Below are positions 798-14,864 of a stretch of DNA of 64,000 bases, piece by piece (the stretch's first letter is position 1; every line of letters starts with the position of its first letter). The notes under the pieces are model-generated. The model was not told the DNA's origin and ran no database searches. It saw only the letters and a list, made by a program, of their open reading frames with translations. Where the stretch lies: contig NZ_PYOO01000005.1 of the NCBI RefSeq assembly GCF_003026395.1, positions 1 to 64,000 of the forward strand, written 5' to 3'. The stretch comes from Photobacterium iliopiscarium (GTDB taxonomy: Bacteria > Pseudomonadota > Gammaproteobacteria > Enterobacterales > Vibrionaceae). A program made the position numbers and the translations under genes.

Positions 798-1037
798 TTA
801 TTTTTCAGGTGTTTCAAGTGCTTTAATGGCAATGTTTAAAGTATTATTAACATCAGCATTGCTCTCAAGTAGTCCTGAACTTGCAGGACCAAGTGCGTTT
901 GAATATAAGTCTCTTTGTTTATTTAATGGTAGATCTAATTGGTCGTATAAGTTCTGACGAATTTTTGCATGTTGTTCTGGTGCATTATTCGATAGATCTA
1001 TCAAAGTGTCATAAATAAGACTAGCAATGTTATCCAT
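798..1037 (-). CDS. Small protein of unknown function (79 aa)
   Basis: The family is not recognised. The predicted 79-residue product is soluble, with no signal peptide or membrane segment, and is rich in Asn, Leu and Asp. The start is supported by a good ribosome site: reading the minus strand, AAGGAA lies five bases before the ATG at 1037. It stands alone, between the repeat region on its downstream side and a divergent HAD gene. No terminator was recognised. It is probably a real gene because of the ribosome site and normal codon use, but no function can be proposed. Confidence 0.6.
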   Translation of the reverse strand: MDNIASLIYDTLIDLSNNAPEQHAKIRQNLYDQLDLPLNKQRDLYSNALGPASSGLLESNADVNNTLNIAIKALETPEK

Positions 1038-1366
1038 AGTCGTTCCTTAATTATTGAATGGGTTGTGTATGGGTTATATCTACCAAATGGGTAAACGTCT
1101 GAGATATTAATCACATAATGATAAGAATGAGTGTAAACAATTGCTTTTTTGACTATTATTTGCTCCTTTATTCTTCAGCTAATAGGTACTCTGTTTTTAG
1201 AATAACGATGCTTATTACTTTATTATATTAGTTCATTTTTTGAAGGTAAGTCGTTAATGTCGCCATGATTGATCACTAGGTTGATTACAGGAGTTGGCAT
1301 CAGATATTTACCTTGTAAGGTTTAATCGGTAATGTGTTCTTCAATGAAATTAAGGAGATGATGTGA
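1038..1366. other. Intergenic region between divergent genes
   Basis: This 329-bp AT-rich stretch lies between the minus-strand 79-aa gene and the plus-strand HAD gene, so it must hold both promoters. No clear operator, RNA gene or repeat was recognised in it. The HAD ribosome site AAGGAG sits at 1352-1357. Confidence 0.5.
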
Positions 1367-2017
1367 ATGATTAAATTCGATTGTTTTATTTTTGATGTAG
1401 ATGCGACGTTGGTTGATACAGAAACCGTGATTGATAACATTTGGAAAACATGGGCGAAGGGTGTTGGTATTGATTTTTCTTTAGTACAGCAGCATATTCA
1501 TGGTCGAAAAATTGAAGAAACATTAAGATGTGTGAATAGTGTATTGGCTAATGACGGGCAGATATTAGCTGTTAAATCGATTGCTGTTAATGAAATGAAG
1601 AAAGCGACGGCAATCCCGGGTGCACTGGAGTTTGTTTCTAAATTAGATCAAGGTTCATGGGCAATTGCAACCAGTGGCCCTAGAAAGATAGCATCTACCA
1701 GTTTACATGCTGCTGGTTTTGAACTGCCCCCTGTGATGGTGTGTGCCGAGGAAGTGAGTAAAGGTAAACCCGAGCCTGAACCATTTTTGGTCGCGGCGAA
1801 GATGTTAAACGTGTCTCCTGAACAATGTGTCGCTTTTGAAGATTCTCCTGTAGGAATAAAATCCGCCAAGACGGCTGGTTGCTATACCATCGCTCTTCTT
1901 ACCAGCCATGATGTAGTTGATTTAGCCGAGGCCGATTTGATTATTGATGGCTTTGATAGTTTAATTCTATCTAAAGTAGAGGATAAATATTGCTTAGCTA
2001 TTCGATCAAATATATAA
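1367..2017 (+). CDS. HAD-superfamily sugar-phosphatase-like hydrolase
   Basis: A 216-aa haloacid dehalogenase-like hydrolase, closest in pattern to the beta-phosphoglucomutase/YfbT group with a helical cap domain. Motif I is FDVDATLVDT near residues 9-18, with the nucleophile and acid/base Asp pair intact; the usual Gly after the second Asp is Ala here. Motif II is ATSGP (near 102), the motif III Lys is in KGKPEP (near 133) and motif IV is FEDSPVGI (near 157). This suggests a cytosolic phosphatase acting on a small sugar or polyol phosphate; the substrate cannot be read. AAGGAG lies ten bases before the ATG. The last ~20 residues diverge from the family core. Confidence 0.8.
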   Translation: MIKFDCFIFDVDATLVDTETVIDNIWKTWAKGVGIDFSLVQQHIHGRKIEETLRCVNSVLANDGQILAVKSIAVNEMKKATAIPGALEFVSKLDQGSWAIATSGPRKIASTSLHAAGFELPPVMVCAEEVSKGKPEPEPFLVAAKMLNVSPEQCVAFEDSPVGIKSAKTAGCYTIALLTSHDVVDLAEADLIIDGFDSLILSKVEDKYCLAIRSNI

Positions 2018-2077
2018 CCTATTAAATAGGCTGTTTTAATAATAATTAAAGGTATTTCCTTTTCAAAGAGATTGGTT

Positions 2078-2317
2078 ATGTTGTGGTTTTTAATGATAAC
2101 GTTGCCGCTAGTATTAGCCGGCATTCATAAATTATTTTTGGTCTTTGACCTATATCCACGTAATAACAGCATGTATATTATTCCGGCGATTATTATCAGT
2201 TACTGCTTATTTGCCGTTCATTCTGCATTTGATCGTGATGCGCTACCTGCGGTATTAATTGCTATTTATTATATTGGTCTAACTGCGATTACAGTGCGAG
2301 CAACCATACGTCGGTAA
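2078..2317 (+). CDS. Small integral membrane protein
   Basis: About 79 residues from the ATG at 2078, with AAAGAG seven bases upstream; a TTG two codons earlier is possible. Three hydrophobic stretches are visible: the N-terminal LWFLMITLPLVLAG, a central IIPAIIISYCLFAV and a C-terminal VLIAIYYIGLTAITV. This predicts a three-helix inner-membrane protein with a basic C-terminus. No family was recognised. It lies 60 bp after the HAD gene and 58 bp before the RecX-like gene on the same strand, so the three may be co-transcribed. Confidence 0.6.
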   Translation: MLWFLMITLPLVLAGIHKLFLVFDLYPRNNSMYIIPAIIISYCLFAVHSAFDRDALPAVLIAIYYIGLTAITVRATIRR

Positions 2318-2375
2318 TATTCCTCTTAAATAATATATCGACGCGTATTTTTCATTACTAATAAAGACTAATAAT

Positions 2376-3176
2376 ATGAAGAAACCGTATCCTGCAAAAA
2401 CCATCCAAAATGTGATTAACAGTGCGATTTATCATTTAAATTTACGGGATCATACTGAGTATGAATTGCGAAAAAAATTAGAAGCTAAAACAGAGCAACA
2501 AGATTGGATAGAGACTGTATTGCAACAAATGAAAGATTTTGGTTATGTAAAAGAAGATCTTCAATTTGCACTGCACTTTAGTGAGATGGCTTTTTCTAAT
2601 GAACATGGACAACAGTACATTAAACAGAAATTAAAAGGTAAAGGTATTCCTGCAACAATCATTGAAGAAGCATTAATTGATATTATGGAGAAAAAACAAG
2701 TGTCTGAACTTGATATGATCAAAAGTCGTTTAGATAGTTATGATGATTTTAGTCAAACCACCAAAGAGAAAATAACCAACGATCTCACTAAGCGAGGGTA
2801 CAGCTTTCAAGATATTTCAAGAGCAATTTCTGAGCATGATGCCGCCGATACGCTATTGAGCAAAGCTAAAATTAAAGGCATGAATGCTGATCTTGAAACC
2901 GAAGTATTGAAATTGGTGAGAAAGCTCAAAGGCAAAACAGTCATCAAGCAAGAGCTTAAAATGAAGCATGTTGATATTACTAACCTTGAGCAAGTCTTCT
3001 ATGATTTAGAGGAAGCGGGTGAGGTCGATTTTTATGAAAACTGCCAATTAGTGTTAGCGAAAAAGCGGTTTGATTTGTCGAATTTTAAAGATAAAAGTAA
3101 AGCCTATGCCTACCTGTCATCAAAAGGTTATGGCTCAGATGAAATCAAAGAAGCGATGGCAGCAGCAAGTAATTAA
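2376..3176 (+). CDS. RecX-family protein, enlarged (266 aa)
   Basis: The first ~110 residues show the RecX pattern of repeated three-helix modules: an Arg/Glu-rich YELRKKLEAK helix, then a FGYVKEDLQFALHF segment and a YIKQKLKGKGI helix with its following helix. The module repeats further on (KEKITNDLTKRGYSFQDI; AYLSSKGYGSDEI at the C-terminus). RecX binds RecA filaments and limits recombination; typical bacterial RecX is ~150-170 aa and next to recA, while this one is much longer and recA is not in the window. No family-specific catalytic residue is expected. Its Asn and stop codons (3171-3176) lie within the terminal degenerate repeat of CRISPR array 1, which is transcribed toward it. Confidence 0.7.
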   Translation: MKKPYPAKTIQNVINSAIYHLNLRDHTEYELRKKLEAKTEQQDWIETVLQQMKDFGYVKEDLQFALHFSEMAFSNEHGQQYIKQKLKGKGIPATIIEEALIDIMEKKQVSELDMIKSRLDSYDDFSQTTKEKITNDLTKRGYSFQDISRAISEHDAADTLLSKAKIKGMNADLETEVLKLVRKLKGKTVIKQELKMKHVDITNLEQVFYDLEEAGEVDFYENCQLVLAKKRFDLSNFKDKSKAYAYLSSKGYGSDEIKEAMAAASN

Positions 3177-3678
3177 AACTGCCTGTGCGGCAGTGAACTC
3201 ATCTTCTTGCTTGCTCAACTGTTTCTTATGTTTCTAAGCTGCCTGTGCGGCAGTGAACGCAGCCGCTAAACTATGCCAATCATACAGAACTTTCTAAGCT
3301 GCCTGTGCGGCAGTGAACTTCTGAGTATTCAAGCATGTCAGCTGAAATACTTTCTAAGCTGCCTGTGCGGCAGTGAACAATGGAAGTATTGCGGCTAAGT
3401 TCTCAACATTTTTCTAAGCTGCCTGTGCGGCAGTGAACTTCAAGTATTAAAATAGCTGCGCCTATCCAGCTTTCTAAGCTGCCTGTGCGGCAGTGAACAA
3501 CCCAAAAAATAGCGACTTCGTTAACGTTCATTTCTAAGCTGCCTGTGCGGCAGTGAACTTTCTAATGGTGCATATATAGAGCCAGTAGCATTTCTAAGCT
3601 GCCTGTGCGGCAGTGAACGCGGGGACTTATGGCTAATACATTTATCCCCTTTTCTAAGCTGCCTGTGCGGCAGTGAAC
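3171..3678 (-). CRISPR. CRISPR array 1, type I-F, 9 repeats and 8 spacers
   Basis: Nine 28-bp repeats at a strict 60-bp period (3171, 3231, 3291, 3351, 3411, 3471, 3531, 3591 and 3651) separated by eight 32-bp spacers. Read on the minus strand the repeat begins GTTCACTGCC, contains the CTGCC/GGCAG stem and ends CTTAGAAA, which is the I-F type bound by Cas6f. The copy at 3171-3198 keeps the 18 bases from GTTCAC to the stem end but only 5 of the last 10, marking it as the distal end. The leader is therefore at 3679 and up, between the array and cas1. Spacer targets were not identified. Confidence 0.98.
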
Positions 3679-3865
3679 TGAAGCGTAATTAGTATAAGTG
3701 ATTGCTTATAAAAGCTAAACCACAAATCCTCGCTAAAAACCCTTTTTTAAACTGATATTTTAAGTTGTTGTTTTATATGGTTTGAATAAGTGCCAAATAA
3801 AAAAGGGTATTTGTGATTACACTCTAAACGAATTATACGCATTATGTATATAATTCGTTTTTTTA
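3679..3865 (-). promoter_or_regulatory. Leader of CRISPR array 1
   Basis: AT-rich sequence directly upstream, in the crRNA direction, of the conserved end of array 1. Read on the minus strand it contains GGGTTTTTAG and, at the array junction, CAATCACTTATACTAATTA followed by CGCTTCA. The array 2 leader has GGGTTTTTAG and CAATCGCTTATTATAG ending AAGCTTCA at the same place. This shared junction block is the expected site of Cas1/Cas2-3 spacer integration. The region also carries the divergent cas1 promoter. Confidence 0.75.
3811..3860 (+). promoter_or_regulatory. Putative cas1 promoter overlapped by a perfect 12-bp inverted repeat
   Basis: TTGTGA (3811-3816) and TATACG (3834-3839) are separated by 17 bp and resemble sigma-70 boxes. 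A perfect inverted repeat, AAACGAATTATA (3826-3837) and TATAATTCGTTT (3849-3860) with an 11-nt gap, covers the -10 box and the predicted start. It ends about 20 bp before the cas1 ATG. It could be the operator of a dimeric repressor; the trailing T run also makes it look like an AT-rich terminator for transcripts entering from array 1. Confidence 0.5.
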
Positions 3866-3880
3866 TTGTTGGTGATTGCT

Positions 3881-4858
3881 ATGTGCGCTAAGTCTTTCAC
3901 ACCGAGTGAGCTAAAAACGATTATTCATTCTAAACGTGCCAATCTTTATTATTTACAGCATTGCCGCGTATTAGTGAATGGTGGGCGGGTTGAATATGTC
4001 ACTGACGAAGGTAAGCAATCATTATATTGGAATATCCCCATAGCAAACACGACAGCCATAATGCTCGGAACTGGCACGTCCATTACTCAGGCCGCAATGC
4101 GCGAATTAGCTAAAGCTGGCGTGCTAGTCGGTTTTTGCGGTGGTGGCGGAACGCCGTTATTCTCAGCTAATGAAGTAGAGCCTGATGTTAGTTGGTTAAC
4201 ACCACAATCAGAATATCGACCAACCGAATATCTTCAATGGTGGGTCAGTTTTTGGTTTGATGATACGAAACGATTAGAAGCTGCGATCCTATTCCAGAGA
4301 GTCCGATTACAACAAATAAAGAAAGTGTGGTTATCAGCAACCATGCAGCGTGATAATCATTTCATTATTGAAGAAGACAAACTGAACCATATTTTATCGG
4401 CGTTTGAAAATAAACTCAGTCATTGCCAGAACAGCACTGATTTATTGTTATTAGAAGCCGTCATGACCAAAGCCTTATATAAACTCGCAGTCAATACGGT
4501 GAAATATGGTGAGTTTACTCGTTCGTCGCGAGGAAATAGTACCGATATTGCCAATCGCTTTTTAGATCACGGTAACTATTTAGCGTATGGCTTAGGGGCG
4601 ACCGCGTGTTGGGTTATTGGATTGCCACATGGGTTAGCCGTTTTACACGGAAAAACCCGTCGAGGCGGATTAGTGTTTGATGTTGCTGATTTAATTAAAG
4701 ATGCGATAGTGCTTCCAAATGCTTTTATTGCCGCAATGGCCGGGGATGATGAGCAAGAATTTCGTCAACGATGCCTAAATGGATTTAGAAAAGCCAATGC
4801 ATTAGATGTGATGATCGATGCCATTAAAGACACAGCACAAGCGGTTGCAAAATTATAA
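3881..4858 (+). CDS. cas1: Cas1, type I-F CRISPR integrase
   Basis: A 325-aa Cas1 from the ATG at 3881, matching the usual I-F length; a TTG 15 bp upstream is in frame but less likely. The family-typical stretch HSKRANLYYLQHCRVLVNGG and GTGTSITQAAMRELAKAG are present near the N-terminus, and the metal-binding Glu (LLLEAVMTKAL), His (GLPHGLAVLHG) and Asp (FDVADLIKDA) residues are in place. It forms the spacer-integration complex with the Cas2 domain of Cas2-3. Its stop codon is immediately followed by the cas2-3 ATG, so the two are co-translated. Divergent from array 1. Confidence 0.97.
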   Translation: MCAKSFTPSELKTIIHSKRANLYYLQHCRVLVNGGRVEYVTDEGKQSLYWNIPIANTTAIMLGTGTSITQAAMRELAKAGVLVGFCGGGGTPLFSANEVEPDVSWLTPQSEYRPTEYLQWWVSFWFDDTKRLEAAILFQRVRLQQIKKVWLSATMQRDNHFIIEEDKLNHILSAFENKLSHCQNSTDLLLLEAVMTKALYKLAVNTVKYGEFTRSSRGNSTDIANRFLDHGNYLAYGLGATACWVIGLPHGLAVLHGKTRRGGLVFDVADLIKDAIVLPNAFIAAMAGDDEQEFRQRCLNGFRKANALDVMIDAIKDTAQAVAKL

Positions 4859-7800
4859 ATGAATATTCTTCTTATCTCTCAATGTAATAAAAAAGCCCTT
4901 GATGAAACCCGTAAAGTGCTGGATCAATTTGCAGAACGTAAAGGTGATCGCACATGGCAAACGCCGATTACCTTAGAAGGGTTAAAAACATTACGTCAGT
5001 TGTTAAAGCAAACCGCTAGGCGGAATACTGCGGTGGCTTGTCACTGGATTCGAGGCGCAAATAATACCGAACTAATGTGGATTGTCGGTAATAAACGTCG
5101 TTTTAATGAACAGGGTACAGTACCCACAAATACAACTGAGCGTAATATTCTGCGTTCGGAAGATGAAAATGGCTGGCAAAGTAACTATGCCGTTGCGTTA
5201 ATGGCATCACTGGCGGGTTTATTTCATGATGTAGGTAAAGCTAACAGCTTATTTCAACACAAACTAACGGGTAAAGGCAGCATTGCCGAGCCATTGCGGC
5301 ATGAATGGCTATCGTTGTTGGTTTTTCAAGCATTTGCAAAGAATAAAACCGATGATCAATGGCTAACAGAATTAGCGGATTTATCACCACAAAAAATTAG
5401 CAAGATTGTTAATGATGTACACTATACCCCAGCGTTGTCACCGTTTATTGGCTTAACCGAATTAGCAAAAACGATTGGATGGTTAATTGTTTCTCACCAC
5501 CGCTTACCAACCTATCAACTGTCAGACTTTAAGCCGACAATTGGTGATTCAGATGATTGGTTAGAACAAAAACTGTGCCCTGAGTGGAATGCAAAAAATC
5601 ATAAAAACCCTGAGTTAATCGCAAAAATAGCGGATAACTTTATTTTCCCTCATGGAATTCCACTACAAAGTCAAACATGGCAAAACAAAGCCCAACAATT
5701 GGCGAAACGGGCATTGGCACATCCTAATCTGCGTAATTTTGGGCGGTGTGAGAACGCATTTCCACTGCACATGGCACGATTATGTTTAATGCTTGCTGAT
5801 CACTGTTATTCCTCAAGCATGCCTGTTATTGCTTGGCAAGATCCTCTCTATAAAGCTTATGCAAATACCGATCGTAAAACGGGGAAATTAAAACAAAAAT
5901 TAGATGAACATAATATCGGAGTAGCGCAATTAGCCTATCGATTAAGCTTAGGCTTGCCTAAATTACGGTTGAGTCTACCTGCGATTACTCGGCATTCGTT
6001 ATTTAAAAAACGTACCACAATCAATAAATTTCGCTGGCAAGATAAAGCCTATGATTTGGCGTGTTCGGTGCGTGATATTTCTGAGGTACACGGCTTTTTT
6101 GGGGTCAATATGGCGTCAACAGGGTGTGGTAAAACCTTTGCCAATGCGCGAATTATGTATGGATTAGCCAATCAACAACAAGGCTGTCGATTTAGCATTG
6201 CTTTAGGACTGCGAACATTAACCCTACAAACAGGGGATGCACTCAAAGATCGTTTAAAACTGGATAGTGATGATTTAGCGGTGTTAGTCGGATCGCAAGC
6301 GGTTAAAGATCTTCATGAAAGTAAGCTCACAACTCAGCAACAAGCAAAAGAGCAACAAACAGGTAGCGAGTCGGAAGCGTTATTTTCAGAGCATATGTAT
6401 GTCAGTTATGACGGCAGCCTTGATGATGGTCACCTTAGCCAGTGGCTCAAACAAAAACCCACTATCCATAAATTGGTCAGTGCGCCAATTACAGTAAGCA
6501 CCATTGATTATTTAATGCCAGCCACAGAAGGTACGCGTGGCGGACAGCAAATTGCACCTATGTTGCGATTATTTACAGGGGATCTCATTCTTGATGAGCC
6601 TGATGATTTTGGTTTAGAAGATTTACCCGCATTATGCCGTTTAGTGCATTGGGCGGGTATGTTAGGTTCACGCATCTTATTGTCATCAGCGACGTTAGCA
6701 CCGTCATTAATTACTGCGTTATTTAAAGCCTATTCTCATGGTCGTCAGCAATATAACCATAGCCACGGCATTACCGAAACAACAGTGCAATGTGGTTGGT
6801 TTGATGAATTTAATGTGCAAGCAGCTTGTATTGATGATGCTGATTTTAAACAGCAGCATATCCAATTTATTACTCAACGATCAAAAACGTTAAGCCGTAA
6901 ATCATTACCCTTACGTCAAGCTGAGTTAGTGCCTTTAGACGTGGAAAAATTAACAAAAACCGATGCGGTTAATTATCTATCAAGCCATATTCAACAGGCA
7001 ATTTACACCTTAGATGAACGCCATCGTCAAGTTGCACCAAACGGTAAAACCATCTCGATTGGCTTAGTGAGAATGGCAAATATTGAACCCTTAATTGCGG
7101 TGGGTGAGTCGTTATTATCAATGCCGACACCAGATAATACCTGTATTCATTATTGTTTTTATCATAGCCAACATCCAATGGCAGTCAGAGCGCATATAGA
7201 GCAACAGTTAGACGCGGTGTTAATGCGCGATCCTAATGATCCACAAGCGATATTAGAGTTACCTCAAATCAAAACTGCATTAGAACAACAGCCTCAACAA
7301 CATCATATTTTTGTGGTGGTCGCCACTGCGGTAGCAGAAGTTGGGCGCGATCATGATTATGATTGGGCTGTGGTTGAACCTAGTTCAATGCGGTCAATTA
7401 TTCAGCTGGCAGGGCGTATTCAGCGTCATCGTCAATGTGTGCCTAATTCGCCAAATATTATGATATTAAGCAAAAATATTAAAGCGTTATTAGGTGCAGA
7501 TGTTGCTTATTGTAAGCCAGGATTTGAACAGCCAAAAAATGACATAAATAAAGGCCATTTGCAGTTAAATCAGCATGATCTGACTCAGCTATTAATGGCT
7601 GATGATTATCAAGTTATCTCCGCTTATCCACGATTTATGGAACCGACAACATTAAAGCCACCATTTAGTTTAATTGAGTTAGAACACTACGCACTGATTT
7701 ATACCTTATTTAAAGACAGCGCTAAAAAAGTCGAATATTGGTGGTTACAACCTTATTTACACTTATTCGGCGAATATCAGAGCCAAACACGGTTTCGACA

Positions 7801-8137
7801 ATCTCGACCGCAAACGGAATACCATTTCTTTATCGATAATGAAGATCAAGCACTGAGCATTAAAGTGCGTGATGAATATAGCGGTGATTTTGTAAATAAA
7901 ACCGAGCTGTTTCACCTTGCGGCGATAGACAATATTGCGAGTGGAAATCAAGCGTGGTTTGATTGTCAATACAACGCAGTGTATGACGAGTTAAGTGACA
8001 TCTTTGATAAAGACAGTGAGCAGATCAGTGAATTATTTGGTGGTATTAATCTTAATGATTCGAATAAAACACCCCGATTTTATTACCTTCCGTGGCTAGG
8101 TGTATTTGAGGGTAAATATAGGCATTCAAAAAATTGA
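4859..8137 (+). CDS. cas3: Cas2-3 fusion, type I-F nuclease-helicase
   Basis: A 1092-aa fusion of Cas2 (first ~65-90 residues) with Cas3, the hallmark of type I-F. The HD nuclease motif is LFHDVGKAN (His123-Asp124), with a further HH pair in VSHHRLPT. Helicase motifs follow: Walker A STGCGKTFAN near residue 418, the DEAD-box equivalent ILDEPDDF near 578, SSATLAP and the motif VI GRIQRHR. The protein both joins Cas1 for adaptation and is recruited by the Csy complex to degrade target DNA. All catalytic motifs look intact, so interference should be functional. A 384-bp gap with a mini-CRISPR separates it from csy1. Confidence 0.97.
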   Translation: MNILLISQCNKKALDETRKVLDQFAERKGDRTWQTPITLEGLKTLRQLLKQTARRNTAVACHWIRGANNTELMWIVGNKRRFNEQGTVPTNTTERNILRSEDENGWQSNYAVALMASLAGLFHDVGKANSLFQHKLTGKGSIAEPLRHEWLSLLVFQAFAKNKTDDQWLTELADLSPQKISKIVNDVHYTPALSPFIGLTELAKTIGWLIVSHHRLPTYQLSDFKPTIGDSDDWLEQKLCPEWNAKNHKNPELIAKIADNFIFPHGIPLQSQTWQNKAQQLAKRALAHPNLRNFGRCENAFPLHMARLCLMLADHCYSSSMPVIAWQDPLYKAYANTDRKTGKLKQKLDEHNIGVAQLAYRLSLGLPKLRLSLPAITRHSLFKKRTTINKFRWQDKAYDLACSVRDISEVHGFFGVNMASTGCGKTFANARIMYGLANQQQGCRFSIALGLRTLTLQTGDALKDRLKLDSDDLAVLVGSQAVKDLHESKLTTQQQAKEQQTGSESEALFSEHMYVSYDGSLDDGHLSQWLKQKPTIHKLVSAPITVSTIDYLMPATEGTRGGQQIAPMLRLFTGDLILDEPDDFGLEDLPALCRLVHWAGMLGSRILLSSATLAPSLITALFKAYSHGRQQYNHSHGITETTVQCGWFDEFNVQAACIDDADFKQQHIQFITQRSKTLSRKSLPLRQAELVPLDVEKLTKTDAVNYLSSHIQQAIYTLDERHRQVAPNGKTISIGLVRMANIEPLIAVGESLLSMPTPDNTCIHYCFYHSQHPMAVRAHIEQQLDAVLMRDPNDPQAILELPQIKTALEQQPQQHHIFVVVATAVAEVGRDHDYDWAVVEPSSMRSIIQLAGRIQRHRQCVPNSPNIMILSKNIKALLGADVAYCKPGFEQPKNDINKGHLQLNQHDLTQLLMADDYQVISAYPRFMEPTTLKPPFSLIELEHYALIYTLFKDSAKKVEYWWLQPYLHLFGEYQSQTRFRQSRPQTEYHFFIDNEDQALSIKVRDEYSGDFVNKTELFHLAAIDNIASGNQAWFDCQYNAVYDELSDIFDKDSEQISELFGGINLNDSNKTPRFYYLPWLGVFEGKYRHSKN

Positions 8138-8168
8138 ATATGATGAACTAGATACTACTAGTTCATCA
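8128..8168 (-). terminator. Hairpin downstream of the mini-CRISPR
   Basis: Perfect 11-bp inverted repeat, TGATGAACTAG (8141-8151) and CTAGTTCATCA (8158-8168), with a 6-nt loop. On the minus strand it directly follows the second degenerate repeat and is followed seven bases later by six T residues (8128-8133), so it could end the CreA/CreR-like transcript. The 7-nt gap is longer than in a classic intrinsic terminator. On the plus strand no T run follows. Confidence 0.5.
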
Positions 8169-8230
8169 TTGCTACCTGTACGGTAGTATAAATAAGTACA
8201 ACATACTTCTAAGCTGCTTGTTCGGCAGTT
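8141..8230 (-). ncRNA. CreR/CreA-like crRNA-like guide RNA
   Basis: Predicted minus-strand transcript starting near 8229: degenerate repeat 1, 14-nt spacer, degenerate repeat 2, hairpin. Repeat 1 keeps the Cas6f-generated 5' handle except its last base (CTTAGAAG for CTTAGAAA). The spacer TATGTTGTACTTAT matches a CC-PAM site next to the -35 box before csy1. Established knowledge: CreA and CreR RNAs of type I systems guide Cascade to partly matching promoters without cleavage. Inference: this RNA lets the Csy complex repress its own operon and/or the 36-codon ORF. Alternative: a decayed spacer-repeat remnant, which would not explain the promoter, the compensatory stem changes or the self-match. 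Confidence 0.75.
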
Positions 8231-8233
8231 TTT
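8164..8233 (-). CRISPR. Minimal degenerate CRISPR (two psi-repeats, one 14-nt spacer)
   Basis: Psi-repeat 1 is 8206-8233 (21 of 28 bases match the array repeat; the four bases 8230-8233 that differ lie before the predicted transcript start). Psi-repeat 2 is 8164-8191 (about 17 of 28). The spacer is 8192-8205, 14 nt rather than 32. In psi-repeat 2 the stem is CTACC/GGTAG instead of CTGCC/GGCAG, a compensatory pair change. In psi-repeat 1 the stem is CTGCC/AGCAG, losing one loop-side pair. It has the same orientation as array 1 and lies between cas2-3 and csy1. Confidence 0.85.
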
Positions 8234-8235
8234 TC

Positions 8236-8264
8236 ATTGTACTCATTGTATCAGTTAAAGACAA
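8236..8264 (-). promoter_or_regulatory. Putative promoter of the CreR/CreA-like RNA
   Basis: On the minus strand, TTGTCT (8264-8259) and TACAAT (8241-8236) are 17 bp apart, a good sigma-70 match. The start point would fall near 8229, at the base of psi-repeat 1, so no separate leader is needed. The -35 box overlaps the far end of the 32-bp region that the guide would target (8263-8294), so the RNA could also limit its own promoter. Confidence 0.6.
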
Positions 8265-8296
8265 ATACATGATTAAATTATTTAGTACTACATAGG
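8263..8296 (-). promoter_or_regulatory. Predicted Cascade target site of the mini-crRNA (PAM plus protospacer)
   Basis: On the minus strand the PAM CC is at 8296-8295 and the protospacer runs from 8294 downward as TATGTAGTACTAAA. Against the spacer TATGTTGTACTTAT the mismatches are at positions 6, 12 and 14 only, and bases 15, 17 and 18 match what follows the spacer. Type I-F uses a CC PAM, and every sixth base is not paired in type I R-loops, so positions 1-13 are effectively fully complementary. The PAM directly abuts the -35 box at 8297. Confidence 0.8.
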
Positions 8297-8324
8297 TTGA
8301 TTTTATTTTTTTGTTATGTATTAT
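8297..8324 (+). promoter_or_regulatory. Putative promoter for the 36-codon ORF and csy1-csy4
   Basis: TTGATT (8297-8302) and TATTAT (8319-8324) with a 16-bp spacer. It points toward csy1 and has no intervening terminator that I can see before csy1, so it may drive both the small ORF and the Csy operon. The predicted Cascade target ends at the base next to the -35 box, which would block RNA polymerase when occupied. Confidence 0.6.
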
Positions 8325-8358
8325 CATGCATAGTTTATTGTATATATAGGTGATATGA

Positions 8359-8469
8359 ATGAGTGCAAGGCAAACAAGGTTTTTAGATTTTATGTTGAAA
8401 GTTTTGACTAAAGTCTGTAGTCAATTAGCTATCCAGTGTCTCCGTTGGATTATTGATATTTTATTTTAG
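8359..8469 (+). CDS. 36-aa cationic hydrophobic peptide, candidate CreT toxin
   Basis: ATG at 8359 with AGGTGA six to eight bases upstream; TAG at 8467-8469. The peptide starts MSARQTRFLDFMLKVLTK, continues through a Cys/Gln segment and ends RWIIDILF, giving a likely amphipathic or membrane-active helix. Codons 4 and 7 are AGG, a rare Arg codon; tRNA sequestration by rare codons is how known CreT toxins act, while small hydrophobic peptides are typical type I toxins, so either mode is conceivable. A second ATG at 8355 opens an 18-codon overlapping frame. The ORF lies between the guide-repressed promoter and csy1. Toxicity is inference; it may simply be part of the csy1 leader. Confidence 0.5.
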   Translation: MSARQTRFLDFMLKVLTKVCSQLAIQCLRWIIDILF

Positions 8470-8521
8470 ATTTAGAGAGTAGTGGCGATATCTTTTGCTA
8501 AAGGTGAAATAGGGAGTTTCT

Positions 8522-9793
8522 ATGCCAATACACATCAGCACATTGATTCAAGCGTATATTGAACAACGGCGTCAAACGAAACTTGATGAAATAGAAAAGA
8601 AAAAGAATGTCAAAAATGGAGTGTCAGAAATTGAATTAGCGACCTTGAATGAACAGATTCAAACAGCTTATCAAGATTTTGATATACAAATATGGCTGAC
8701 AAGTGCTGCCGTGAGAGCTAAACAAATCAGTTTGGCAACTCATGCGGTGAAGTTTACTCATGGTAGTGCGAAAGGTAGTAATATTTTAGCATTAGCTTCT
8801 AATACTGATGCGCCATATCTTGATTCTTCAGCAATAGTAACTCCCGCAGTCGATGCTGTGGGTAATGCTGCTGCATTAGATGTGGCGAAGTTACTCCAGC
8901 TTGATGATAGAAATGCTACATTGGCTGTTTATTTATCACAAGGGGACGATCATGTTTTACGTCCTCTAGCGAGTAGTGATGAACAATGTCAATTGTGGGC
9001 TGATGGGTTGCGTCAAGCATTGGAAGTTAAAACACCCAGTAGTCATACCTTAGCCAAACAAATTTATTTCCCTATTGGCGATAATCAATATCATCTTATT
9101 AGCCCGTTATATTCCTCTGCTTTAGCCCATGAATTATTTCATCAGGTACAACATTCCCGTTTTAGTGATGAGATGAAAGCCGCGAGGGATGCGCGTAAGA
9201 AAAATCAACCAAGTGATGTTGATGTGGTGCGTTACTCTAATTTAGCGGTAACGATCAGTGGGGGGTCAAAGCCCCAAAATATCTCGCAATTGAATTCTAA
9301 GCGTTACGGTAAAACCTATTTATTCCCTTGTACTGCGCCTGATTGGAAAAGCCAATATCAACCACCCATGTTTGGTTCTAATTGGTTTGATAGCCGAGAA
9401 GTGGGACGTGATACCTATTATCTGGTTAAGTTACTGGCTGAGTTTTTAGTTAAAGTGAAACTCTTAGATAGCAACATTCGTATTCGTCAACGCCGTGATC
9501 AATTAGCTGATCAGATCCTTGATAGTATTTTAACCTTGGCAGCGCCTCATCAAGTGAATGCAAAAGGTTGGAGCGAAACCAGTGAATTATCACCAGCACA
9601 GCAATGCTGGCTTGATCCACAAGCCGAACACCTTTATAGCGGTGATTGGCAAACTGAGATCAGTCGTGATTTTGGTTTATGGCTCAATAATCGTTTAGAA
9701 AAGGCCAGCCAGCAACAATTAATGTTAGGCAGTGAAGCATTACAACATTGGCAAGCATTATGTCATGACGCTATTCGTGAGGCAGGACGATGA
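8522..9793 (+). CDS. csy1: Csy1 (Cas8f), large subunit of the Csy complex
   Basis: A 423-aa Cas8f. Family marks include the early KFTHGSAKGSNI and the C-terminal half with SNLAVTISGGSKPQNISQLN, typical of Csy1, which recognises the CC PAM and contacts the 5' end of the crRNA with Csy2. The ribosome site AGGGAG lies six bases before the ATG. The gene overlaps csy2 by four bases (ATGA), so they are translationally coupled. Length is normal for the family and no disruption is seen. It is the first gene of the interference operon, downstream of the mini-CRISPR and its predicted target promoter. Confidence 0.96.
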   Translation: MPIHISTLIQAYIEQRRQTKLDEIEKKKNVKNGVSEIELATLNEQIQTAYQDFDIQIWLTSAAVRAKQISLATHAVKFTHGSAKGSNILALASNTDAPYLDSSAIVTPAVDAVGNAAALDVAKLLQLDDRNATLAVYLSQGDDHVLRPLASSDEQCQLWADGLRQALEVKTPSSHTLAKQIYFPIGDNQYHLISPLYSSALAHELFHQVQHSRFSDEMKAARDARKKNQPSDVDVVRYSNLAVTISGGSKPQNISQLNSKRYGKTYLFPCTAPDWKSQYQPPMFGSNWFDSREVGRDTYYLVKLLAEFLVKVKLLDSNIRIRQRRDQLADQILDSILTLAAPHQVNAKGWSETSELSPAQQCWLDPQAEHLYSGDWQTEISRDFGLWLNNRLEKASQQQLMLGSEALQHWQALCHDAIREAGR

Positions 9794-10740
9794 GTTTATT
9801 TATTCTTAAAAATATGCACATTGAAGGTGCAAATGCGATTGCAGGTTTTACTTATGGTTTTCCTGCTATTACTCAGTTTTTAGGGTTTGCGCATGCATTA
9901 TCACGCAAAGTTGAGCCACAACATGGGATCAGCTTTGATGGTTGTGCCGTGATGTGCCACCAACATCAAGTGCATGCTTATCGGGGCAGTGATTGGGATG
10001 ATTATGGTTTTTCATTAACCCGTAATCCGTTAGCGAAAGACGGTAAAACAGCGCCTATTGTTGAAGAAGGAAAAATGAATCTTTGTGTGTCGTTACTGAT
10101 TGAATGCAAAGGCTTCAGTGGCGGTAACAGCGACCAAGAACAACGCATCAGTGACGCCATAAAAACGCTGGCATTAAGTCAACGTTGTGCTGGTGGACGT
10201 ATTACCCATATTGAAGCGTGTCAATTTAAACCAATGCCGAATGAGGAAAGTGATTGTCGCAAACTTTTACGACCATTGTTACCTGGATTTATTTTATGTG
10301 ATCGTAGCGATTATCTACAGCAACATGCTGAAAATAAAAATGATAGTCAAAATATGATCATGAATTGGCTCGATTTTATTGCAGTAGGTTATCGCTATGA
10401 AATGCCCACTGATAGTGACAATGTAGAAGCGGAACAAGGCAAGTGGAAGTCTATAACTAAGCCTCAAAGCGGCTATTTAGTACCACTGATGATTGGTTAC
10501 AAACAAATTAGCGATGTATTTGCTGCCGGAGAGGTGGCTAACGTTCGTGATAACACAACCCCATTTGCATTTACTGAGGCTGTTTATAGTGTCGGTGAGT
10601 GGATAGGCAGTCCGAGTCGGGTTGAATCTATCAATCAAATCTTATGGCGTTATCAATATAGTTCACCGTATTACTTATGCCGCGCCCAACAATCTATTCA
10701 TTCTATTGAAAGTAATGAAGATTTCGACTTTTCTTATTAA
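9790..10740 (+). CDS. csy2: Csy2 (Cas5f), Csy-complex subunit
   Basis: A 316-aa Cas5f protein. It starts MSLFILKNMHIEGANAIAGF and continues with the Csy2-typical TYGFPAITQFLGFAHALSRK. It also has a central GGRITHIEACQFKPM region. It forms a heterodimer with Csy1 at the 5' handle of the crRNA and helps with PAM reading. It overlaps csy1 by four bases and precedes csy3 by 19 bp on the same strand. The sequence is full length without frameshift. Confidence 0.95.
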   Translation: MSLFILKNMHIEGANAIAGFTYGFPAITQFLGFAHALSRKVEPQHGISFDGCAVMCHQHQVHAYRGSDWDDYGFSLTRNPLAKDGKTAPIVEEGKMNLCVSLLIECKGFSGGNSDQEQRISDAIKTLALSQRCAGGRITHIEACQFKPMPNEESDCRKLLRPLLPGFILCDRSDYLQQHAENKNDSQNMIMNWLDFIAVGYRYEMPTDSDNVEAEQGKWKSITKPQSGYLVPLMIGYKQISDVFAAGEVANVRDNTTPFAFTEAVYSVGEWIGSPSRVESINQILWRYQYSSPYYLCRAQQSIHSIESNEDFDFSY

Positions 10741-10759
10741 ATAGCCAAGGATGTATACA

Positions 10760-11758
10760 ATGACAACGAAGTTAACCACACCATCAGTATTAGCTTTTGA
10801 AGGCAAATTGGCTTGCTCAGATGCCGTAATGGCAGCGGGTAATTGGAATGAAATAGCCACTAGCGCAAATTGGCAGCCTATCGTAGTTAATGAGAAATCA
10901 GTACGCGGTACGATCTCTAACCGTATGAAAGGGCCTAAAGCGAATGATCCGGCTAAATTAGATGCTGAAATTCAAAAGGCAAATTTACAAACAGTAGATA
11001 ATGCTGCGTTACCGTTTGATTGCGATACGCTTAAATTAACCTTTACGTTGCGTGTTCTCGGTGATTTAAATGTGCCATCTACGTGTAATAGCCCTGATTA
11101 CCAAGCGGCATTAAGTCAATTGATTAAAGGCTATGTTACTGAGCATGGGTTTAAAGAATTAGCAACACGTTATGCTACTAATCTCGTTAATGGTCGTTTT
11201 TTATGGCGTAACCGCGTTGGGGCTGAAAATGTAATGGTGACAGTACAGCACCATGATCAACAGTGGACGTTTGACAGTTTAGATTACAGCCTACGTCAAT
11301 TTACTGCTGCAAAAGGTGATTTAGCGGCATTATCAGCGGTGATTGAGCAAGGATTACTTGGCGAAAAAGCAACCTTATTAACCGTGACTGCTTTTGTACA
11401 ATTAGGTCATGGACAAACAGTATTCCCATCTCAAGAATTGGTTATGAATACGGGCTCTGGTGATAAGAGTAAGTATCTGTATCAACTAAATGGTCAAGCG
11501 GCAATGCACTCTCAAAAAATTGGTAATGCATTACGCACCATTGATACATGGCATCCTGAAACAGAAGAAGTTGGACCGATTGCCGTTGAACCTTATGGCT
11601 CGGTCACTAATCGCGGTAAAGCGTACCGTCAGCCTAAAGAAAAAACAGATTTCTATAACTTATTAGATAACTGGTTATTAAAAGATAAAGCGCCTGAATT
11701 AGAGCAACAACATTATGTGATGGCGATGTTGGTGCGCGGCGGTGTATTTGGAGAATAG
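10760..11758 (+). CDS. csy3: Csy3 (Cas7f), backbone subunit of the Csy complex
   Basis: A 332-aa Cas7f from the ATG at 10760; AAGG nine bases upstream fits this start better than the ATG at 10751, which touches the ribosome site. Typical segments are [17 protein letters not shown] at the N-terminus, the [11 protein letters not shown] loop, and [12 protein letters not shown]. Six copies coat the crRNA spacer and displace every sixth nucleotide, which matters for reading the mini-crRNA match upstream. It is five bases before csy4. Confidence 0.96.
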
Positions 11759-11763
11759 CGATT

Positions 11764-12318
11764 ATGTTGTATTACATTGATATTCAAGTGCTACCAGATT
11801 TGGAAACTTCTGCGGCAGTATTAATGAATAACTTATTTGCTAAATTACATCGTCAAATAGCAACTGTTGGTAATGGTGCTGTGGGGATCAGTTTTCCTAA
11901 TGTGCATAAAACATTAGGTGATACGTTACGTTTACACGGTTCTCAAATAGCACTTGAACAAATGATGGCGAATACTTGGCTTAAAGGGCTAAGAGATTAC
12001 ACGCATGTAACGACTATTACAGAAATTCCGAGTGACATCAAAGGTTATCAAACCGTTAAGCGTGTACAGACTAAAAGTGCCAATAATAAGCGTAAGCGTT
12101 CAATTGCTAAAGGTTGGATCAGTGCTGATGAAGCGATCCATGCTATTCCTGATACAGCAGAGCGTAAGTTAACTTTGCCTTATGTTCAAATACAGAGTTT
12201 ATCTAATCAGAATGTGATGCGAGTATTTATTGAGCACAGCCAAGTTGTGAGTGCTGCAACTGACGGTGTATTTAGTAGCTATGGATTAAGTGCCACCGCA
12301 ACGATCCCTGTATTTTAA
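11764..12318 (+). CDS. csy4: Csy4 (Cas6f), crRNA-processing endoribonuclease
   Basis: A 184-aa Cas6f. The catalytic His is at position 29 (LFAKLHRQI), the same position as in the characterised Pseudomonas enzyme, and the Arg/Lys-rich helix that enters the repeat stem is NNKRKRSIAKGW near residues 114-125. It cuts precursor crRNA at the 3' base of the CTGCC/GGCAG stem, leaving the CUUAGAAA handle, and stays bound to the 3' hairpin. It is the last gene of the Csy operon, followed by a terminator and the array 2 leader. Confidence 0.96.
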   Translation: MLYYIDIQVLPDLETSAAVLMNNLFAKLHRQIATVGNGAVGISFPNVHKTLGDTLRLHGSQIALEQMMANTWLKGLRDYTHVTTITEIPSDIKGYQTVKRVQTKSANNKRKRSIAKGWISADEAIHAIPDTAERKLTLPYVQIQSLSNQNVMRVFIEHSQVVSAATDGVFSSYGLSATATIPVF

Positions 12319-12498: not shown

Positions 12499-14864
12499 GT
12501 TCACTGCCGCACAGGCAGCTTAGAAAAGCATCTAGATAAGCCGTCTTAGCTTCTCGTAGTTCACTGCCGCACAGGCAGCTTAGAAAACGCCCGTTGTATA
12601 TTGAGTCAAAGTCAATACGTTCACTGCCGCACAGGCAGCTTAGAAATCTTAGCTTTAATTCTTCTAATATTTCGTCTAGTTCACTGCCGCACAGGCAGCT
12701 TAGAAAGTTGATATGAATTCGAAAGAGTTTCGATACACGTTCACTGCCGCACAGGCAGCTTAGAAATTCACAAGACAAGCTGAATCAAAAAAAGCTTTGT
12801 TCACTGCCGCACAGGCAGCTTAGAAAACCGATAATTCCGTTAACCCACGGATTGTAACGTTCACTGCCGCACAGGCAGCTTAGAAAAATGAATCATCATC
12901 AGTCTTTTTAATTTCTGGTGTTCACTGCCGCACAGGCAGCTTAGAAAAGCTAGTACTTGACGGATTTAAACAGGCGTACGTTCACTGCCGCACAGGCAGC
13001 TTAGAAACACTAACATACCACCTCTTAACCGGTCTCAGCGTTCACTGCCGCACAGGCAGCTTAGAAACTTTGCCATTACTTTATTGAATTGGCTTAAACC
13101 GTTCACTGCCGCACAGGCAGCTTAGAAATAGAAATAAGGGGCTTTTTTGTGTCTATATATGTTCACTGCCGCACAGGCAGCTTAGAAAATTAAGAAACCA
13201 AGCTGATTTATTTAGTGGTTGTTCACTGCCGCACAGGCAGCTTAGAAAGTACATGGTGGTAATAAATCTCACACTTATTTGTTCACTGCCGCACAGGCAG
13301 CTTAGAAAACTGAAGAATGCACCCAATGATTCAGCATCGGGTTCACTGCCGCACAGGCAGCTTAGAAATGACGGTGCTGAAAAAAGCGCTGGACTACGAA
13401 GTTCACTGCCGCACAGGCAGCTTAGAAAAGAGTATCAGAACGACAACTAAAGAGTTTTATGTTCACTGCCGCACAGGCAGCTTAGAAATTTCTGGTAATC
13501 ACTCAGTAACCATTAAAGTTGTTCACTGCCGCACAGGCAGCTTAGAAAGAAAGCATACCGGACACAGCAGCAACAGCGCAGTTCACTGCCGCACAGGCAG
13601 CTTAGAAAAACAAAGTGAGAACTAACTTTAAAAAGTTCACGTTCACTGCCGCACAGGCAGCTTAGAAATTTTGTGGCGAACTTTTTACGAATGCGCTTAC
13701 GTTCACTGCCGCACAGGCAGCTTAGAAAGCTAGCACCCCATGACACGGCATCATGCGCGAGTTCACTGCCGCACAGGCAGCTTAGAAATGTGACTTCTAT
13801 AGCTACTCCCCAATCAGTTCACTGCCGCACAGGCAGCTTAGAAATTAGTAAAGGTTGGCTTAATTGCCACATCAAAGTTCACTGCCGCACAGGCAGCTTA
13901 GAAAACAAAACAAAACTTCGCCAAACAGATAAATGAGTTCACTGCCGCACAGGCAGCTTAGAAATTATCACTTATTGCTAGTGAACCATCGATTTTGTTC
14001 ACTGCCGCACAGGCAGCTTAGAAAAAGACGTAAACGGAATTCAGAAGAAACACTATGTTCACTGCCGCACAGGCAGCTTAGAAAACATCAGGTAATGACA
14101 TAAGATTATCTTTTTCGTTCACTGCCGCACAGGCAACTTAGAAAGCTATATTAAACATAAACTAGCCTTATCACTTGTTCACTGCCGCACAGGCAGCTTA
14201 GAAAATTCATGTCTGCAATTTCACCCGTCATACGTTGTTCACTGCCGCACAGGCAGCTTAGAAAGTCATCTATCGGTGATTACATCCTCAACCTTAGTTC
14301 ACTGCCGCACAGGCAGCTTAGAAAAGATAGTAATTTAGCAAACGCAAAATTTAAACGTTCACTGCCGCACAGGCAGCTTAGAAACAATTACTATCAGGGG
14401 CGGCTGGCACTGTAGTGTTCACTGCCGCACAGGCAGCTTAGAAAATATTAAAGGGTTTAACGCTGACGTGTTGAATGTTCACTGCCGCACAGGCAGCTTA
14501 GAAAGTATCCGCATGCAAGGTAATGCGCCTGAAGATGTTCACTGCCGCACAGGCAGCTTAGAAATGTCGGGGATGGCTCTGCTAGCTTAAGGTCATGTTC
14601 ACTGCCGCACAGGCAGCTTAGAAAAGACAGCTCCATCATGATGCCCTGATGCACCCGTTCACTGCCGCACAGGCAGCTTAGAAAGAATGCAGCGCCAATG
14701 ATACCGTTGTAATTTGGTTCACTGCCGCACAGGCAGCTTAGAAAAGCTCAAACGGAAATTGCCACTGTTGACATGAGTTCACTGCCGCACAGGCAGCTTA
14801 GAAATGAAGATGGGAATGTGTTTAAAAACCTATACAGTTCACTGCCGCACAGGCAGCTTAGCAA
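12499..14864 (+). CRISPR. CRISPR array 2, type I-F, 40 repeats and 39 spacers
   Basis: Forty 28-bp repeats beginning GTTCACTGCC and ending CTTAGAAA. Spacers are 32 bp except two of 33 bp (12887-12919 and 13068-13100) and one of 28 bp (13789-13816). Repeats are identical except 14117-14144 (one G to A in the 3' stem arm) and the last, 14837-14864 (GAAA to GCAA), which marks the distal end. The leader is on the csy4 side, so transcription runs left to right. No duplicate spacers were seen by eye. No spacer was matched to the window by eye. Confidence 0.98.

Follow-up and report, generated by a model that had tools for sequence, protein, structure and literature searches.

The 384-nt gap that separates cas3 from csy1 in the type I-F locus of Photobacterium iliopiscarium holds a mini-CRISPR that most likely acts as a promoter switch guided through Csy, in the manner of CreA and CreR. 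Its two degenerate repeats, its 14-nt spacer and the CC-flanked site that the spacer partly matches can be read directly in the DNA, as can the promoter-like geometry around that site, and the pairing of spacer and site is conserved across the family of such modules. The module looks like a new example of a known, recently discovered kind of circuit; an I-F CreTA in the same gap has already been published for Acinetobacter, according to the accessible part of that account (PMC10097628). With it, Photobacterium would join the bacteria in which a type I-F locus is under the control of a guide RNA.

The window, by which we mean the whole 64,000-nt stretch that was analysed, holds a complete type I-F locus in which cas1, cas3, csy1, csy2, csy3 and csy4 all score above the NCBIfam cut-offs. 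Two arrays flank it, one of 8 units at 3231-3678 and one of 40 units at 12499-14864, a unit being counted when 24 or more of its 28 bases agreed. The features of the locus and of the cas3-csy1 gap are collected in Table 1.

Table 1. Features of the type I-F locus and of the gap between cas3 and csy1 (window positions)
Feature	Position	Strand	Details
cas1f and cas3f (cas2-3)	3866-8137	plus	NCBIfam
Likely terminator of guide gene	8140-8169	minus	12-bp hairpin, T-rich tail
Degenerate I-F repeat 2	8164-8191	minus	17/28 like array repeat; stem 5/5 pairs
Spacer TATGTTGTACTTAT, 14 nt	8192-8205 (read 8205-8192)	minus	between the two degenerate repeats
Degenerate I-F repeat 1	8206-8233	minus	21/28 like array repeat; handle CTTAGAAG; stem 4/5 pairs
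Predicted guide-gene promoter-like TTGTCT-N17-TACAAT	8236-8264	minus	
Target TATGTAGTACTAAA	8281-8294 (read 8294-8281)	minus	CC PAM at 8295-8296
Predicted promoter-like TTGATT-N16-TATTAT, touching PAM	8297-8324	plus	TTGATT 8297-8302, TATTAT 8319-8324
Ribosome-site-like AGGTGA	8348-8353	plus	
36-codon frame, candidate creT or chance frame	8359-8469	plus	AGG at codons 4 and 7
Terminator-like hairpin inside 36-codon frame	8431-8450	plus	
csy1 (cas8f)	8522-9793	plus	NCBIfam
csy2, csy3, csy4 (cas6f)	9790-12318	plus	NCBIfam

The module departs from a canonical I-F array, with its near-identical 28-nt repeats and spacers of about 32 nt, both in the shortness of its spacer and in the divergence of its two repeats. 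What it does share with CreTA modules is a pair of hairpin-bearing degenerate repeats around a short spacer within a cas locus, a spacer that partly matches a nearby CC-flanked site, and a divergent frame with a ribosome-site-like sequence downstream of the target. The initial annotation had read a mini-crRNA here, and as regards the module this reading stands, the repeats and spacer having been read on both strands; it did not mention that the stem of the first hairpin is broken, with four of five pairs in the window against five of five in the other 25 distinct modules, several of which carry changed letters. The break is a C-A mismatch at the closing pair and is the same in P. carnosum. Judged from the minus-strand promoter-like match, the guide transcript would start at about 8229.

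The mismatches described earlier at spacer positions 6, 12 and 14 were recovered on re-reading both strands, as were the CC PAM beside the target and its contact with the TTGATT box, which starts directly after it. This box belongs to the only plus-strand promoter-like match in 8080-8560; taken alone the match is weak, because the scan of both strands gave three sites, the same level as the shuffle mean of 2.9. Cascade leaves each sixth base of the guide unpaired, so that mismatches at positions 6 and 12 are expected. When these two positions were disregarded and a hit had to show CC together with 11 or 12 matches at the 12 remaining ones, 8 of 40,000 dinucleotide-shuffled gaps and 5 of 40,000 shuffled spacers matched equally well. 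The figure of 1 in 100,000 given in the initial annotation was thus too strong, a chance match being 10-20 times likelier at roughly 1-2 in 10,000. That spacer and site match by coincidence is nonetheless hardly credible: the gap is rich in A and T, and in the unmasked test (at least 11 of 14) 132 of 40,000 shuffles give a hit, but few do so once the mask is applied, and 24 of the 26 modules of the family pair with position-specific mismatches. Across the 4.31-Mb genome CCTATGTNGTACTNA has one site with zero mismatches, which is the target itself, and three sites with at most one mismatch against five for the reversed pattern, so that near-matches are at background.

Conservation of the pairing was followed in relatives. 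A csy1 gene was found in 17 of 99 nearby genomes, in 45 of 329 genomes of the family and in 14 of 25 of the genus of one Pectobacterium; a species collection gave 549 stretches with csy1, the best 80 of which were kept. The region upstream of csy1 was scanned at 127 loci, in all but one of them over 299 nt or more, some genomes being present from two collections; L003 (on the same contig as L021), L013-L017, L019 and matches without a locus stand outside the scan. A pair of repeats with Csy4-type hairpins occurs in 36 loci, which together hold 26 distinct spacers. L105 seemed at first to have a plus-strand partner, failed a stricter repeat test and is left uncounted, while L043 and L070 showed no pair in the first scan, the former passing a later repeat test and the latter failing it.

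Pairing in relatives had been named beforehand as the test on which the reading could fail, and it was found: 24 of the 26 distinct mini-CRISPRs have a CC-flanked partner with at least 10 matches in their own region, in all 24 cases on the minus strand, when the first 14 positions are scored unmasked on both strands. At least 11 of 14 positions match in 23 of 26 modules set against their own region, compared with 8 of 650 swapped pairs, a comparison on which chance is rejected for the family as a whole; some swaps join close relatives, such as L010 and L086, and both the swap and the Fisher tests ignore relatedness. The family comparison thus supports the guided repression proposed in the initial annotation. 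Of the 48 cells at positions 6 and 12, 32 hold a mismatch, whereas the rest of positions 1 to 11 show only 7 in 240 cells (p 7e-24 by a Fisher test that takes no account of relatedness). Further along they number 6 of 24 at position 13, 9 of 18 at 18, 8 of 17 at 19 and 8 of 13 at 20, a rise which indicates that pairing fades beyond about position 12. The 26 modules thereby allow the sixth-base rule to be measured in evolution: mismatches are frequent at positions 6 and 12 and scarce over the remainder of 1-11. Spacers range from 13 to 30 nt, and in 13 of 26 modules the length is 14, 20 or 26, that is 2 modulo 6 like the usual 32 (binomial p 9e-5); such lengths may reflect whole six-base subunit steps.

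In some related pairs spacer and site also change together. In L052 and L057 they do so at positions 1, 7, 9, 14 and 19, in L032 and L033 at positions 6 and 9, and between L043 and L137, two modules from Pectobacterium, there are in-step differences at 3, 4, 5, 7, 9, 13, 16 and 17. The other two of the four related pairs compared, L030 with L136 and L010 with L086, differ little and show no paired change, which counts against the guided switch. Against L057 the window pair has several in-step differences, for example at positions 7, 9, 10 and 13. Another point against the switch is that the window pair shows no covariation of its own, since the one close relative in which the module was seen, P. 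carnosum, hardly differs: its csy1 is 96% identical to that of the window, and spacer, site and frame are all unchanged. The placing of the target recurs as well, with TTGA at most 7 nt after the PAM complement in 15 of 24 modules against 53 of 1,313 GG sites in the same regions. Given the footprint of the Csy complex at a bound site, a complex bound at such a target would lie against the -35 box.

Further observations weigh against the guided switch. The broken stem of repeat 1 stands alone among the 26 modules, no repeats were found at three close Photobacterium loci (L021, L022 and L023; csy1 identity 90-95%), where the gap measures 116-133 nt, and two of the 26 modules are without a partner. 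One of these belongs to P. sanguinicancri, where no partner with at most two mismatches was found genome-wide besides copies of the spacer. For the other, in Photorhabdus thracensis, one partial match lies 1.6 kb off on the other strand and inside a frame, and one lies elsewhere; neither was accepted. The same locus (L073) has frames upstream of the mini-CRISPR at 822-4200, with no nearby target left, and these frames look like transposases. The broken pair, the absence from three close species and the two partnerless modules could be accounted for if the module formerly worked and is now decaying in the window organism. We consider such a relic improbable, as only one of the 12 unmasked positions fails to match between guide and site, the pair differs in step from relatives such as L057, and both promoters, repeat 2 and the hairpin look intact by eye.

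For the guided switch, then, we infer the following course of events. The mini-CRISPR would be transcribed to yield one short crRNA-like guide with the 14-nt spacer, which would load into the cell's own Csy complex, and the loaded complex would bind the CC-flanked site touching the -35 box at 8297 without cutting it. So placed, it would block the promoter pointing into the leader frame at 8359 and, presumably, csy1-csy4. The abundance of Csy would probably feed back on the promoter at 8297-8324, and removal or occupation of Csy would switch that promoter on, and with it any product encoded in the leader. Should a single promoter serve Csy and a toxin alike, autorepression and toxin silencing may occur side by side. 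The predicted promoter is the only plus-strand promoter-like site that the scan gave before csy1, and the 36-codon frame, a candidate toxin gene or a chance frame, lies under it; the promoter is followed by the terminator-like hairpin inside that frame, which could release a short leader RNA and so separate the promoter from csy1. Our confidence in the switch is slightly lowered because this hairpin could stop transcripts before they reach csy1.

What the switch controls can be framed in two narrower forms. In the first, a CreTA, the main output would be a toxin from the leader at 8331-8470, either an RNA that exhausts the AGG tRNA or a small peptide; the guide would silence it, cells losing Csy would be harmed and the locus would be retained. 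We place this a little short of an even prospect. The slot and orientation of the 36-codon frame, between the promoter-like site and csy1, equal those of the published I-F creT as far as the accessible account goes, and the short leader RNA that the hairpin would give is consistent with such an output. No sense codon is rarer than AGG, used 8 times in 13,243, across the 30 window frames that reach 250 aa, and a ribosome site followed by two AGG in codons 2-8 occurs in 31 of 20,000 shuffles of 8331-8521 and in none of the 51 window frames of at least 100 aa. The codon test was, however, devised after the frame had been seen, and a frame of 36 codons is by itself no rarity: 529 of 20,000 dinucleotide shuffles of 8331-8521 contain one, as do 7.6% of the shuffles made base by base from 8297-8521. 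The helical moment of the 36-aa product is modestly high, a value reached by 4.3% of shuffled peptides, and searches of Pfam, NCBIfam and PADLOC up to E 1 gave no match for the product; nor does the frame offer a diverged orthologue for a selection test. The leader RNA 8331-8470 has no special fold (z +1.21, 177 of 200 shuffles folding at least as well).

In the second form, a CreR, the guide would merely tune Csy expression and the 36-codon frame would be there by chance. We regard this as less likely than not. No second plus-strand promoter-like site was found by the scan before csy1, and Cas-autorepressing guide RNAs of the CreR kind have been described, in the available parts of the sources, for types I-B, I-E and V-A. 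Like the window module, these pair a guide of limited match with a cas promoter and set up a feedback on Cas level, whereas the window is type I-F and has a possible toxin frame between the promoter and the cas gene. The leader of the window is, moreover, longer than autorepression needs and carries a frame with a ribosome site. Shmakov et al. 2023 (NAR) reportedly surveyed regulatory mini-arrays, among them one of type I-F1 that was put to the test; these are said to resemble the window module in having two repeat-like sequences around a spacer that shows partial complementarity to a cas8 or cargo promoter.

The relatives bear on both forms. In 6 of the 24 modules with a partner only 60-93 nt separate the target from csy1 and the frames listed in that interval do not exceed 19 aa, which favours a guide that only tunes Csy; the published I-F mini-ORF is only 33 bp in the accessible account, so such short gaps could still hold one. 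In the remaining 18 the target lies 221-803 nt before csy1, and each of the 13 distant loci examined has a frame of 36-86 aa before csy1, with a ribosome site in 11 of the 13 by a simple test, which favours a silenced toxin. The frame count covers 19 loci, 6 near and 13 distant, with L058 standing for the L043 spacer; L136 and L137 were viewed separately, and L032, L076 and L096 lie outside the count. Eleven Enterobacterales frames align with one another as small proteins with one hydrophobic segment and an FSIFSITIN-like tail, at 21-89% identity to the first. Pairs of these frames give dN/dS values of 0.20, 0.23 and 0.30, and a fourth of 0.60 that was aligned across a length difference, which is again in favour of the CreTA form. 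None of 10 frames searched scored above a Pfam or NCBIfam cut-off, and none of three searched matched in PADLOC. The small frames of Enterobacterales are candidate CRISPR-silenced proteins, of a class that could not be placed. Both outputs, Csy and toxin, are plausible within the family, and the two layouts, with and without a sizeable frame before csy1, make a toxin guard and a Cas thermostat distinguishable by comparison. As a separate observation, the frames of 49-57 aa with one hydrophobic segment between target and csy1 (L030, L044, L045, L050, L052, L057, L058, L062, L068, L082, L131, L136, L137, L139 and L141) fall by eye into at least two groups, one with the tail FSIFSITINRN and one from Brenneria and Pectobacterium with KKxVxxVVLL.

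The two forms could also be joined. One promoter would carry both toxin and Csy operon under control of the 14-nt guide; the toxin would be the first bacterial CreT to use up the scarce arginine tRNA for AGG through codons that open a longer frame, and the Enterobacterales slot would hold an undescribed family of guide-silenced small proteins, each with a single hydrophobic segment. This combination seems to us unlikely. If the promoter is indeed shared, a single drop in Csy would both raise Csy and arm the toxin.

Comparison with published systems, each taken from the accessible part of its source, places the module more closely. In the Acinetobacter I-F CreTA of the cas3-csy1 gap, repression of creT via the Csy complex was shown experimentally, and 19 further CreTA modules were found by manual search, among which the window module may itself be counted (PMC10097628). 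The CreTA of Acinetobacter sp. WCHA45 is alike in its cas3-csy1 gap of about 400 bp, its two degenerate repeats, its partial CC-flanked match and a guide gene divergent from a ribosome-site frame downstream of the target (PMC10097628). It differs in its unpaired positions (6, 11 and 18, against mismatches at 6, 12 and 14 in the window), in its spacer (20 nt against 14 nt), in its target, which lies downstream of the creT promoter rather than upstream and touching the -35 box, and in its frame, a 33-bp mini-ORF rather than 36 codons with two AGG (PMC10097628). A literature search on CreTA and Photobacterium returned no title concerning such a module.

The tRNA-sequestering CreT of archaea is alike in that a start codon is followed by rare codons and a degenerate crRNA silences it, but in the available text its frame is only 4 or 6 codons long, has two rare codons in succession and comes with a stem-loop, whereas in the window the two AGG codons are non-adjacent within 36 codons and no stable or marked structure is present (PMC8501985). 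The same source suggests that rare codons opening a longer frame are possible, which accords with the CreTA form (PMC8501985). In CrePA, too, a guide and effector silence a gene that is released by anti-CRISPR attack; CreP typically has a KilA-N domain in the portion of the account available (PMC12737573), whereas the 36-aa product of the window frame has no Pfam match. Racr RNA anti-CRISPRs are, in their accessible description, solitary repeat units on mobile elements, unlike the two repeats inside the cas locus of the window (PMC10651486).

The gap DNA was also compared with other collections. Among 52 genomes of the genus there were six matches, the whole gap being spanned only in the window genome and P. 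carnosum and the others being short. Phage records gave no similar sequence, and a phage-borne copy of the guide was rejected when 10 exact handle-plus-seed matches in viral contigs proved not to follow an I-F hairpin in the 30 bases read. Plasmid records gave two weak matches, both to other mini-CRISPRs. I-F-type mini-CRISPRs are carried by the Aeromonas salmonicida plasmid pAsa_2939 (L146, 6001-6063) and by the Thiomicrorhabdus plasmid pTmrp1 (L147, 6001-6069); the 12 kb taken from each list no cas gene, the plasmid gene table being incomplete, and gave no convincing CC-flanked partner. They are possibly guides or decoys against a host cas locus. The cas3-csy1 gaps of L092 and L069 hold three and four repeat-like copies on the plus strand and no mini-CRISPR, and perhaps hint at how mini-CRISPRs originate. 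Elsewhere in the window, positions 1-660 carry a block of about 290 bp that is tandemly repeated, with several copies of the GGCTGTCCACAATTAG motif seen by eye.
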